Origin: Aotearoamyces nothofagi
Lineage: Eukaryota; Ascomycota; Leotiomycetes; Leotiales; Tympanidaceae
Assembly: GCA_015345905.1 (NCBI GenBank)
Contig: JADDTR010000003.1
Location: forward strand, 1,364,001-1,428,000
Reading direction: 5' to 3'
Length of the DNA stretch: 64,000 nt
In this document: positions 17,405 through 41,201 of the stretch, in pieces
Layout: every line of letters starts with the position of its first letter
How positions within the stretch are numbered: the first letter of the stretch is position 1
Notes under the pieces: generated by a model
What the model was told of the DNA's origin: nothing
What the model saw: the letters and a program-made list of their open reading frames with translations, nothing else
The model's database searches: none
Translations under genes and position numbers: made by a program

Positions 17405-18430
17405 GCTGTTGTATAAGACGGTCTAAGTAGTGCCGGAGACGGGTATTCGCAACAACAAGATCTTATCGGGTCCCTGTAAACATCTTTATAACGAGATATA
17501 TACCAGCATACCGGTTTGTAGCTACTGTAGTAGGTGCACAGGACACACATATCGGAGTGCAATTGCATATATATACAACACCTCTACGCCGATCTCCACA
17601 CCAGCCCCGCTAGACCGACATGAAACGTCTATATAATTCAGACGTGCAGAGATTACGGTTCCGTGTCATTCCTCCCTCCGCCTCTCCCCCTCTCTCAAAC
17701 CCCATATCTCCCACCACCTTCCCAAATCCCGCTGCCATCAGCACCCGTGACTGCTCCCCTCCCAGGCCCGCCACGCCACGCCAACGCGCAGCACAGCACC
17801 ACCAAAGCAGCCAAGCGTCATCGCCCAGATCCTGTCAAGACAGAATCTCAAAGCCTGCATTGTCTGTTACACAGCGATCAGGGTCCTCAAGAGCGGCAAC
17901 ACCTGCCGAGACGTATAATAAATACCCCATCTTATCCAAACTCTATCTCTCTCTCTCTCCTTTTCACTTTCTCGATTCCTTTCTTTCTCTCGCTGCTGCT
18001 GTTGATAAGATTTCTTTATCGGGAGCTTATCAGTTATCTATCTATCTATCACTACCGCTCTGCTGGACTACCCGTGATTAACCGAATCCAACCGAACTAA
18101 GCGACTCTGACGGCCGGCTGTGGCAGCGGCGGCCTGTGCAGGAATTATAATATCATGAGAACCATGATTTCATTCTCAGAAATTGGTAGACCTGTTGTCG
18201 GTAATACGCTGTGATTTAAAACATAGATATCTAGATACCTTGTCGTAGAAGATATACACATAAAATATTTATTTAATTTTCGATTCTATCGATGACGGCG
18301 CAAAAGAAACGAGAGCGGCAAATAAAATAAATAACCCAACGAAGTACGCGTGCCCAAAAAATGATCCAAAAAATGATACAAAAAAATGCAAAAAGAGAGG
18401 TGTTGACGAATCGTCAATCCTCGGGAATTG
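17405..18430. other. Intergenic, pyrimidine-rich
   Basis: About 1 kb. The plus strand at 17660-18070 is rich in C and T, which keeps two overlapping frames of about 150 codons open with low-complexity, Ser/Pro-rich translations. I do not accept either as a gene. TCTA repeats occur near 18038. A 7-base inverted repeat (TTGACGA...TCGTCAA) lies at 18403-18417. A T run on the minus strand at 18390-18394 could end Pol III transcription of the tRNA. Confidence 0.5.
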
Positions 18431-18466
18431 AGCCCGAGGCGGGGCTCGAACCCGCGACCTTGAGGT

Positions 18467-18478
18467 AATACTCTTGTA
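18467..18478 (-). other. Canonical 12-base tRNA intron in the anticodon loop
   Basis: Lies between positions 37 and 38 of the tRNA-Lys body, the standard place for nuclear tRNA introns cut by the SEN endonuclease. Its AAGAG can pair with the CTCTT of the anticodon loop. Confidence 0.7.
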
Positions 18479-18497
18479 TAAGAGCCACACGCTCTAC

Positions 18498-18556
18498 CTG
18501 TGCGATTGTTAGTTAACCGAATCGACTGCTGATCCTGAAATTGCTGAGCTGCTTAC
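18498..18556 (-). other. 59-base D-loop insertion with spliceosomal-intron signals
   Basis: On the minus strand the insert starts GTAAGC, has TTAACTAAC 12-20 bases before its end and finishes GCACAG. These match the 5' splice site, branch point and 3' splice site of the fungal mRNA introns in this window, and its length fits them too. Removing it exactly restores a normal D loop between G18 and G19. The bases GGTA occur at both junctions, which could be a 4-base target duplication or simple junction ambiguity. It contains no T4 run that would stop Pol III. Splicing by the spliceosome is an inference. Confidence 0.6.
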
Positions 18557-18574
18557 CGATTGAGCTACCCGGGC

Positions 18575-19264
18575 TGGTTCGTTGGAGACATTTTGCTAAT
18601 TCCTGCTCATATACAAGCGAATGGGGATTTTTTTTTATCGCTTGTGACCGAGAGCGCACCCGGGGGCCCGCCCGCACCGCACACACCACGCGGCGAGGGA
18701 AATAGTTGGCTCACTTTTGCGCGCGAAAGTCAAAGTCGTAAGAGCATGATATTAAAACTCGCCATATTAAACAGCACTTCCAGCACGCCGAGGGCTTCTC
18801 TTAAATTCGCCGAGTTTTGCATCGTAGGTACACGAGAGGCATGTATACATCGTGGCTTTTCTCTTGTTGGGTGATCTTTGCATTTAGTTGAGTAATAACA
18901 CGCGGCATTGGAATATTTAGCAAATGCCCAGCTCTCTTACAAAAATATCGTATCACAATTACACCAGAGAGGCTCAATGATGAAGACCATAAGCCTTCGG
19001 CTATTTATATTCTCGATTCAAGCTGGACTGCTATATCAGTTTGTGTAAAAGTTTTTGAATTTTAGGAATGAAGGCCATCTAGGAGGGAGGCCACTATAGA
19101 AGCAATGCCGCCGTATGTTTCAGAAGGGGTCAAATGTAATGTAATGCCCGCGCTATGAATTCATCATCCAAAAGAAACGAAATGCTATGCAATCTCTGAG
19201 AAGGCCAAATGCCCACAGTTGCACTTGACCTATATCCATAAAACGCCTTAATAACGCCATAAGT
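18575..19264. other. Intergenic between the tRNA and the CAF120-like gene
   Basis: About 690 bases. There is a GC-rich patch near 18650-18740, then AT-rich DNA that probably includes the 3' UTR of the CAF120-like gene. No gene was recognised. Confidence 0.45.
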
Positions 19265-38207: not shown

Positions 38208-41201
38208 TTAAAAGCCTCTCCCCGTCCTTTTGACCGCCGGTCTCCTGACAGCGCCACGCGCAGAAACCTTCTTCGCCACCGCGGCTGCTGGCTTCTCGGC
38301 CGCCTTCAAGGCCTCGTTTTCTATTCTGTCCGCCTCTCTCTGCTTGTCCTCAGCCATCTTAGCCTCGATCTCCATTTTCCTGTTGAATTCCACCTCCGTG
38401 ACACGCTTCTCTCGCGCCGAGTACCCCTTCTCTTTCACCGAGTAGAAGACGCCTCCCAACTCGGCAAGCCAGTGGGGATCCACCGACGTGACAGTAGACA
38501 TGTATTCCTTGGACGTGAGAATGAGCTCGTGATAAATCACGTAGTCTGGCAGGTACCCTAGCCCGTATAAAGCACTCGTCGGGTGGAGTTGCACCGTAAC
38601 GCTGGTCCTCAGATTGATATATTCGCCAATGCCCTTGACCTTGGCAGCTTGATGATAGTATCCAGAGCAGATACATTTCCTAATGACATCCCAGTCCGTA
38701 CCACAGCTGATCATAGACATCTTTTGCATCTTCATAATGTCCCCGAGTTGTTCCCTGATCTCCTTTGCCCGCCGGAGTGATTTGGGATGTAGAAAGTGTC
38801 GGGTACACCATCCATCAGAATATCCGTTTGACTTCCACTGCGTGTACACATGAAGATATGTCAGATGGTCAGATTCTGGAACAAAGAACTTCTCTCGGGC
38901 AGCATCGGATTCTTCTTGACGCTCCTTTGGCCTGTAAAATACGCTGGGAACGGATAGCATTGACACAATGGTAAGCATCTCCTCACTGCACCCATAGTCT
39001 TCCGAGGTGATCAAGAGCTTGGCAAGTGAAGGATCCATAGGAAACGCCGTCATCTTCCTGCCAATTTCGGTCAGGTCTCCAATGTTATCAAGAGCACCCA
39101 AGGCCCATAAGTCGAAAAGAGAGGTGGTGATCGTGTCTTGTGGGGGCGGGTCCATGAAGTCGAAATCCAGCAGGTCCTTGACGCCGAGGGATTTCAAGAG
39201 CAGCACTGTATTGCTCAGGTTCGTCCTTTGGATCTCGGGAATGGTCTGGATATACATTTCATCCTTGAATGCGGCCTCCGTGAATAAGTGAAATGCTTTC
39301 CCGGGCCCAGTTCGTCCAGCGCGGCCTGCTCGCTGCGAAGCGTTTGCTTGGGATATCGGCGTGATCTGTAACGTATCCATACCCATTCGAGGGTTATAAA
39401 CCTTAAGCTTCGAGTAGCCTGCGTCCACCACGTACATGATACCGTCGACGGTCAGACTAGTCTCGGCAATATTGGTAGCAACGATGACCTTTCTCACACC
39501 AGGCGCCGCCTTGTCAAAGATCTTCGCCTGCAGATCTGCCGGCATCTGACTGTATATCGGCAGTATGCTCAGCTTCGGAGGGTCGTTCAGGGCGTTGAGA
39601 CGTTCCTGGATCAGCTCGCAAGTACACTCGATATCTTCCTGCCCAGTCATGAAGACAAGGATATCACCCGCACCCATCGAAACATGGATAGCAAGTACCT
39701 GCTGAACTGCCTGATCCACGTAGTCCTCCACAGGGGAGCGATGAAACATGACGTCCACGGGAAAGGTGCGCCCGGGAATGAAGAACTCTGGGGCTCCACC
39801 GTAGAAGTCCGAGAAGCGCTTCGAGTTCATAGTCGCAGATGTTACAATCAGCTTTAGATCTCGTCGTCGAGCCAGGACTTTCTTGAAGAGTCCCATCAAT
39901 ACATCGGTGTTCAAGGCTCGCTCGTGGGCCTCGTCCATAATAACACAAGAGTAGCGGTCGAGGTCGGGTTCGTTGAGCGACTCTCGCAACAGCACGCCAT
40001 CAGTCATATACTTGATCGCAGTCTCTTTACTGGTGCAGTCCTCGAAACGAATCGCGTAGCCGACCGTACTACCAAGCTTGCACTCCATCTCCTCACTGAC
40101 ACGTTTGGCAACACTCATTGCAGCTACTCGGCGAGGCTGTGTGCATCCTATCATTCCAACCTTGGCGTATCCATCCTCGTAGAGGAACTGTGTCAGCTGG
40201 GTGGTTTTCCCAGAACCAGTCTCCCCAACAACGATAACCACCTGGTTGTCTCGAATGACCCTAAGTAGATCTTCTCGGACCGCAAATGCAGGCAAGAACT
40301 CCCTTTGTTCTCGCAATGTCTTGCTCTGGCTGAAGTTGCTCGCACCCTCGTTCTTTTTCATATGCTCCGCGAACTTACTCTGCCCCTTGTTGTTGTCTTC
40401 TTCGCCCACCATAGGAGCAGCACTGTCTCCCTCGTCCTCCTTCACGCCCATCAGGTTGCCCAATGCAGTTCCTGCCAGGTTGGTGGCTTCCTGCGCTTGC
40501 TTCTGCCTCTCCTTCTGTTGCCGCTTCTCCTTCACCACCTTGCTACCCTTCCGGCTGAAGACTGCCATGTCACTTTGGTTGTCCCGTATTGCCGGCACCG
40601 GATCAAGCTGCTTCGTAAATACCGTCCGTCCGTCGAGAAAGGGAGGCCGGAGGTCATGCACCAGAAGATGGACCCGCGTGGCCTCCTCGTCATCTTCAAA
40701 ATCGTCGCCGAAATCACGTCTTTGCGCCACGCCCGACGTCAGCATCCGATTTGTTTCCCACGCGTCCACGTCCTTCTGCTTCTGCGTCGCCCTCGCGCTC
40801 ATCCGCTTCGCCGTCTTCTTCTCCGCCAGCGTGGCCTCCCGCTGCTGGTCCGCCCACCCGCTGTCGTAGGAGCCGAACGGGTTGTGCGTCTCGTCGCCGA
40901 AGATATGGCCTGACTCGTCTCCGGCATACCAGTCTCGGTCCAGCGCGTTCGAGTCTTCCACGTCCACGGCAGGCTCGGGCCCGTCGAACTCTTGCTGCCG
41001 CGGGGTCGAGGGATACCGCGACTGCGCGCGCGGCGTGGAAGACCTTGAGCCGTTTCTGAAGCGGCTCTGCGAGCGCGGAGGAGCCTGGGACTGGCTGCGA
41101 GGCGAAGGCCTCGACGGGACAGCAAATCGATCATCAGACCTCAGCGGATTGAAGTCGAGCTTGCGTCGCTTCGGACTGAGCTCTCCGTCATCTCTAGCCA
41201 T
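38208..41201 (-). CDS. PRP16: Pre-mRNA splicing DEAH-box ATPase PRP16
   Basis: Remodels the spliceosome after the first catalytic step. One uninterrupted frame of 997 aa from a true ATG. The N-terminal 300 residues are Arg/Ser- and Lys/Glu-rich, with the family segment [13 protein letters not shown] and [10 protein letters not shown]. The helicase core has Walker A GETGSGKT at about 325, [12 protein letters not shown] in [15 protein letters not shown] in [18 protein letters not shown] and [12 protein letters not shown]. The winged-helix, ratchet and OB-fold regions follow ([18 protein letters not shown]). NPFGSY and the N-terminal block favour PRP16 over PRP2 and PRP22. The gene is divergent to PWP1, with 224 bases between the starts. 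Confidence 0.95.

Follow-up and report, generated by a model that had tools for sequence, protein, structure and literature searches.

The genome of Aotearoamyces nothofagi contains, within a stretch of 64,000 nucleotides of contig JADDTR010000003.1 (this whole stretch is called the window hereafter), a gene for tRNA-Lys(CUU) interrupted in the D arm by 59 bases that look like an mRNA intron, and the question raised by this locus is what the insert represents. The initial annotation, made from the letters alone, favoured a spliceosomal intron, kept a dead gene as the alternative and hinted at an introner-like insertion. The evidence presented below makes it very probable that the 59 bases are a genuine spliceosomal intron of U2 type (GT-AG), that their host is a functional nuclear gene for tRNA-Lys(CUU), and that this gene, named Lys1 here, is one of a set in this genome.

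Lys1 consists of two exon blocks, one spliceosomal-type intron and one ordinary anticodon intron (Table 1). Re-reading of the sequence confirmed the coordinates, the insert length and the GTAAGC and CACAG ends given in the initial annotation. The insertion point lies between nucleotides 18 and 19 of the tRNA, exon 2 as a whole extends over 18497-18431 of the minus strand, and the acceptor stem, formed by exon 1 with 18432-18438, was read as seven pairs, one G-U among them. ARAGORN, run on Lys1 with artificial flanks, found no tRNA in the unspliced sequence and a tRNA-Lys(ctt) once the insert was taken out; this comparison had been proposed along with the claim that the cut exactly restores a standard tRNA. 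The identity of the product was borne out, but not its standard form: a 12-nt anticodon intron had been overlooked, so that the 73-nt tRNA-Lys(CUU) results only after removal of both 18556-18498 and 18478-18467, and the anticodon stem contains a U29-U41 mismatch, common to the second Lys gene described below. Because of a GGTA repeat the junction is ambiguous, with five cuts giving the same product, and one of the five is GT-AG. Rfam at gathering thresholds returned no match in the 64-kb window. It should be added that lysine codons in six open reading frames of the window were AAG in 192 cases vs AAA in 106.

Table 1. Positions of Lys1 and its parts in the window, and of the other split tRNA genes in the assembly. 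Site denotes the two tRNA nucleotides between which the spliceosomal-type intron lies.
Feature	Position	Strand	Basis or details
Lys1, tRNA-Lys(CUU) gene, unspliced, 144 nt	18431..18574	minus	sequence; ARAGORN calls tRNA-Lys(ctt) only without 18498-18556
Lys1 upstream element AATTAGCAAA at -27, like the element of ordinary tRNA genes	18592..18601	minus	p ~0.008 vs random window 75-mers
Lys1 exon 1, tRNA nt 1-18: acceptor 5' strand, 5' D stem, most of A box	18557..18574	minus	sequence
Lys1 spliceosomal-type intron, 59 nt, 5' GTAAGC, 3' CACAG	18498..18556	minus	site 18/19; sequence, same-site Lys2 intron, mRNA-intron comparison
Lys1 branch-site motif CTAAC, predicted branch A at 18509, 11 nt from intron end	18508..18512	minus	pattern search and mRNA-intron comparison
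Lys1 exon 2, first part, nt 19-37; anticodon CTT at 18480-18482	18479..18497	minus	sequence, ARAGORN
Lys1 ordinary anticodon-loop intron TACAAGAGTATT, 12 nt	18467..18478	minus	ARAGORN; Lys2 lacks it
Lys1 exon 2, last part: anticodon stem 3' strand, T arm, acceptor 3' strand, discriminator U73	18431..18466	minus	sequence
Lys1 B box, within T arm	18442-18452	minus	
Lys1 3' trailer, 36 nt, hairpin TTGACGATTCGTCAA at 18403-18417	18395..18430	minus	alignment to Lys2 trailer
Lys1 T5 run, likely Pol III terminator	18390..18394	minus	sequence
Prp16 (spliceosomal DEAH helicase) gene	38208-41201	minus	
Lys2, second split Lys(CUU)	C25:230871, locus L002		intron 64 nt, site 18/19
Split Ala(AGC)	locus L031	minus	intron 53 nt, site 24/25
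Split Cys(GCA)	locus L030		intron 54 nt, site 10/11
Split His(GTG)	locus L089		intron 55 nt, site 28/29
Split Phe(GAA), Phe1	locus L079		intron 53 nt, site 15/16
Second split Phe(GAA), Phe2	contig C15		exons placed by BLAST; 5' junction outside the six-gene set
Split Trp(CCA)	contig C18		3' part only; site probably 28/29

A BLAST search with Lys1 through all 55 contigs of the 25.5-Mb assembly led to two places, Lys1 itself and a second gene, Lys2. An intron occupies the same site in Lys2 (GTAAGT...CTAATAAC...CGCAG), the ends of the insert reading GTAAGTCCC...TTCTAATAACCATCGCAG, and the anticodon intron of Lys1 is absent. The exons of the pair are identical at 70 of 73 nucleotides, and the three changes comprise C4 to U4, which keeps the pair with G69, and the compensatory replacement of pair G31-C39 by A31-U39. 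The introns match in 42 of 70 aligned columns, their sequence having diverged with the splice signals retained; as their middle parts are no more alike than shuffled sequences (172 of 1000 shuffles as good), intron homology rests on the site, the signals and the intron tail. The flanks are related as well, downstream over 50 nt (38 of 55 columns; 0/300 shuffles as good) and upstream over 60 nt (1/300), the likeness fading farther upstream (36/300). To judge from these alignments, the pair is an old duplication in which exons and splice signals were conserved and the intron drifted.

To find further genes of this kind, the genome was searched for a pattern of a CTAAC branch site followed by AG and a B box, the reversed pattern serving as noise control. 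The former occurred at 44 places and the latter at 125, which means that most of the forward places are noise; inspection revealed tRNA 3' halves at seven of the 44, namely those of Lys1, Ala, Cys, His, Phe1, Phe2 and Trp. In all five pattern-found genes that were read upstream (Lys1, Ala, Cys, His and Phe1), a tRNA 5' half ends at GTNAGY. Both junctions were read in a set of six genes (Lys1, Lys2, Phe1, Ala, Cys and His), with Phe2 and Trp standing outside it, and the insertion sites, assigned by reading, span nucleotides 10 to 29. Ordinary anticodon introns are also present in Lys1, Phe1, Ala and His. The genome search for other interrupted tRNA genes that had been suggested for this locus has yielded Lys2, Ala, Cys, His, two Phe genes and, in part, Trp.

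Several of these genes deserve separate description. The GT-AG cut of Phe1 gives C15, and a shift by one base would give the usual G. Exon 1 of Phe2 was placed by BLAST 55 nt upstream on the correct strand (16/16 nt, E 7.4, weak alone); the intron of Phe2 sits one base farther on than that of Phe1, and the predicted mature tRNA is identical, which decides for C15 over G15 in Phe. An unusual C15/A48 in the Phe tRNA and a U27-U43 mismatch in the His tRNA count, like the U29-U41 mismatch of both Lys copies, against the favoured reading. Cys and His are split on one and the same contig, some 11.5 kb apart (C14:53494 and C14:65007). On the minus strand of L031, the split Ala(AGC) gene is directly followed by an ordinary Ala(AGC) gene whose sole intron is of the anticodon kind, the two forming a ready comparison pair.

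With the introns removed, ARAGORN assigned the expected isotype to all six genes, and before removal it found nothing in three and a wrong isotype in three. The program is permissive, accepting 114 of 247 deletions for Lys1, and the junctions consequently rest on splice signals and cloverleaf and not on ARAGORN alone. When 168 deletions per gene were ranked by cloverleaf score, the GT-AG deletion came first (29 tied), first (29 tied), fifth, second, first (3 tied) and second in the six genes. The 5' junction reads GTNAGY in 6/6 genes vs 165 of 6,810 GT sites in the window; Phe1, Ala, Cys and His had been picked through the branch-site and B-box pattern and not through this junction, Lys1 came from the initial annotation and Lys2 from BLAST. 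All six introns end in YAG and are 53-64 nt long. The branch motif is CTAAC or CTAAT, with the branch A 10-12 nt from the intron end in eight introns (for Phe1 the value was taken by reading, the script having chosen a later CTAAT), a feature that is partly built in, since most split genes were found through CTAAC.

For comparison, 60 mRNA-like introns of the same genome were collected by open frames on both sides and a loose consensus, a set that is partly circular and not real in every member. Their length quartiles are 50/57.5/80 nt and their branch-to-end quartiles 10/13/19 nt, and GTAAGT and GTAAGC are their commonest 5' sites; by these measures the tRNA-gene introns resemble mRNA introns of the same genome. 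The absence of TTTT from the six introns was also considered and was given no weight, as TTTT occurs in only 15% of the 60 mRNA-like introns.

The same signals bear on the possibility that the D-arm inserts are unusual introns of the tRNA-splicing endonuclease, of the sort reported from nuclear tRNA genes of red algae and from nucleomorphs, which look like GT-AG introns with a branch site by coincidence or convergence. Ectopic tRNA introns do occur in some eukaryotes, according to the part of a review available (PMC4090602), and many ordinary anticodon introns are already removed in this genome. The endonuclease, however, requires none of the features that recur in 6/6 genes (GTNAGY, CTAAC/CTAAT 10-12 nt from the end, YAG), and we judge this origin very unlikely. 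A strict bulge-helix-bulge test found no full 4-bp central helix in any junction register, and four control anticodon introns failed it too. The spliceosomal reading of the initial annotation is, on the other hand, strongly backed by the same-site intron of Lys2 and by the similar introns of Ala, Cys, His, both Phe genes and, partly, Trp, and anatomy together with conservation points to the spliceosome as the probable remover of the D-arm intron.

We also asked whether ordinary copies of the same tRNAs exist elsewhere. BLAST at E up to 10, with the exons of Lys, Phe, Cys and His in spliced form and with the 3' half of Trp, yielded nine matches, every one at a split locus and none contiguous across the intron site. 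Judged by the best BLAST candidates, the assembly, in which gaps are possible, contains no uninterrupted gene for Lys(CUU), Phe, Cys, His or Trp (the last searched by its 3' half), and the many intact Lys(CUU) copies that had been named as an argument for a pseudogene were not found. The uninterrupted Ala(AGC) copy adjoining the split one directly downstream shows that dependence on such introns is not universal among isotypes. An Rfam search of the genome, in which 63 of 791 candidates were scored, gave at least 29 tRNA matches, 23 of them 83-147 nt long, five of 72-74 nt and one partial, and most tRNA genes here accordingly seem to carry anticodon introns. When six loci were searched with a limit of E 0.1, the Rfam matches were all to tRNA and confined to L030 and L031; L001, L002, L079 and L089 gave none, nor did the trailers.

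These data allow us to weigh the suggestion that the split genes are tRNA pseudogenes in decay, whose intron-like sequence arose by chance or was inserted. Decay would agree with the mismatched stems of Lys and His, and intact diverged genes could have escaped a census limited to 63 of 791 candidates. A cell is, however, unable to dispense with Phe, Cys, His and Trp tRNAs, and as only split loci were reached by spliced-exon BLAST for these isotypes and for Lys(CUU), the suggestion is disfavoured. It is further opposed by the compensatory change in Lys, by which tRNA pairing has been kept in two copies, and by the retention of splice signals in both Lys introns as the rest drifted. We therefore hold decay to be extremely unlikely, and the dead-gene alternative put forward for Lys1 is likewise disfavoured.

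As to the origin of the introns, introners would account for repeated intron gains, and the GGTA at both junctions had been taken as a hint of them. Many near-identical genome copies would be expected of an introner-like element and none was found: BLAST with whole genes, and with four introns alone at E up to 5, gave only the duplicate genes and no further intron copies, so that the hint was not upheld. Among 15 intron pairs, likeness exceeded that of most shuffles in two, Lys1-Ala (0/1000) and Ala-His (11/1000), which is suggestive only.

Transcription signals were compared with those of ordinary tRNA genes of the genome, which have an upstream element near AATAAGCGAA at a median position of -27. 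The best match lies at -25 to -28 in five of the six split genes and reaches p <=0.024 against random 75-mers in four; it is weak in Lys2 (p 0.29) and in His (p 0.18, displaced to -51). A B box and a T-run are present in 6/6. By reading, the A box is split by the intron in Cys and Phe, and the TAG that ends the Cys intron re-creates an A-box-like sequence at its 3' junction. The trailer up to the first T4 run measures 27-55 nt in the six split genes vs a median of 7 in 29 ordinary ones (Mann-Whitney p 0.0005, the two Lys copies not being independent), and a hairpin can be folded in each of the six trailers. Trailers of at least 27 nt also occur in 4/29 ordinary genes; long trailers that fold into hairpins were noted for a few ordinary genes, in L005, L007, L031 (the second Ala) and L099. 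The split His gene has a longer leader and, before the T-run of its trailer (L089 1592-1660), a second, T-arm-like hairpin GATGGTTCAAATCCATC, which may represent a further B box or what is left of another tRNA.

Spliceosomal introns normally reside in Pol II transcripts. The introns may be removed by the spliceosome from genes transcribed by RNA polymerase II, the tRNA being cut from a longer capped RNA, and both the split A box of Cys and Phe and the long hairpin-bearing trailers would suit such a route. It is opposed by the ordinary-type upstream element and its spacing in 5/6 genes and by the T-run after each, and Pol II is not needed for introns of this type, as fungal U6 and U3 genes are Pol III genes or are listed with spliceosomal introns in the part of a survey available (PMC5832005). 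We regard Pol II transcription as unlikely, and transcription of the split tRNA genes by Pol III as the likely case.

From the anatomy described, we infer the following course for transcription, splicing enzyme, order of steps and function of the split genes. RNA polymerase III would most likely transcribe Lys1, starting where the upstream element directs it and continuing through the intron to the T-run past the hairpin trailer. The D-arm intron would then be taken out by the spliceosome in the nucleus, after which the tRNA body would fold, the ends would be trimmed and the anticodon intron, where present, would be removed by tRNA endonuclease and ligase. We further consider it fairly probable, with less confidence than for the intron of Lys1 itself, that the spliceosome is obligatory for the Phe, Cys, His, Trp and Lys(CUU) tRNAs, that some precursors need two unrelated splicing systems, that introns were gained repeatedly, at a minimum of five tRNA sites, and that the hairpin trailers belong to the system, perhaps delaying the precursor until the spliceosome acts. 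If the introns are spliced in this manner, translation in this fungus would depend directly on the spliceosome, and a single RNA would be processed by two unrelated splicing systems. Moreover, the varied insertion sites represent a natural experiment on spliceosomal intron gain and on keeping a tightly folding RNA open for splicing. The presence in the window of a gene for Prp16, whose protein shows 95% identity to an environmental protein and 93% to that of Claussenomyces sp. TS43310 (a leotiomycete), is probably a coincidence.

In the parts of the literature available, reviews treat tRNA splicing as spliceosome-independent (PMC13149111), U3 and U6 are, according to a 2017 survey, the sole small structured RNAs in which interruption by an intron is known to be common (PMC5832005), and the word stem 'spliceosom' is absent from a review of tRNA introns (PMC4090602) and from the tRNAscan-SE 2.0 paper (PMC8450103). 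The portions of open-licence literature searched contained no account of nuclear tRNA genes with spliceosomal introns. That tRNA gene finders miss or misname the split genes would explain the lack of earlier notice. The introns themselves look ordinary; what is new, as far as searched, is that nuclear tRNA genes host them, for some isotypes in every copy found.

Like canonical endonuclease/ligase introns, those described here interrupt nuclear tRNA genes and have to be removed, and both kinds coexist within Lys1, Phe1, Ala and His. The canonical ones follow nucleotide 37 and are recognised by tRNA shape, whereas the new ones lie at nucleotides 10-29 and bear GT-branch-AG signals. mRNA-type introns have reportedly been described in fungal nuclear rRNA genes, as the title of a 1993 paper has it (cited in PMC11782384). 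The likeness consists in an mRNA-type intron within a non-coding RNA gene, but rRNA is a many-copy Pol I transcript and the genes here are few-copy tRNA genes. Introners differ in their repeated copies, which BLAST did not find here.

Introns beyond the anticodon loop are known in tRNA genes of Cyanidioschyzon and of nucleomorphs, some genes having two or three, and resemble the present ones in location; in the part of the source available they are ascribed to the splicing endonuclease, spliceosomal signals not being reported (PMC4090602). Of the introns of fungal U3 snoRNA genes, 133/138 lie in the 5' half and the average length is 92 nt, according to the accessible part of the survey (PMC5832005). 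They share with the introns described here the canonical splice and branch sites and, for the most part, a place within the RNA's 5' half, and differ in that the host here is a tRNA and the length 53-64 nt. U6 is a Pol III transcript. Two full-model matches to U6 in this genome, of 107 and 111 nt, are full-length and indicate that U6 here is without an intron. Other fungal U6 snRNA genes do carry spliceosomal introns, as stated in the available part of the same survey (PMC5832005). In both cases an mRNA-type intron is set within a small structured RNA, but the hosts in A. nothofagi are tRNA genes with internal promoter boxes, and several isotypes are affected.
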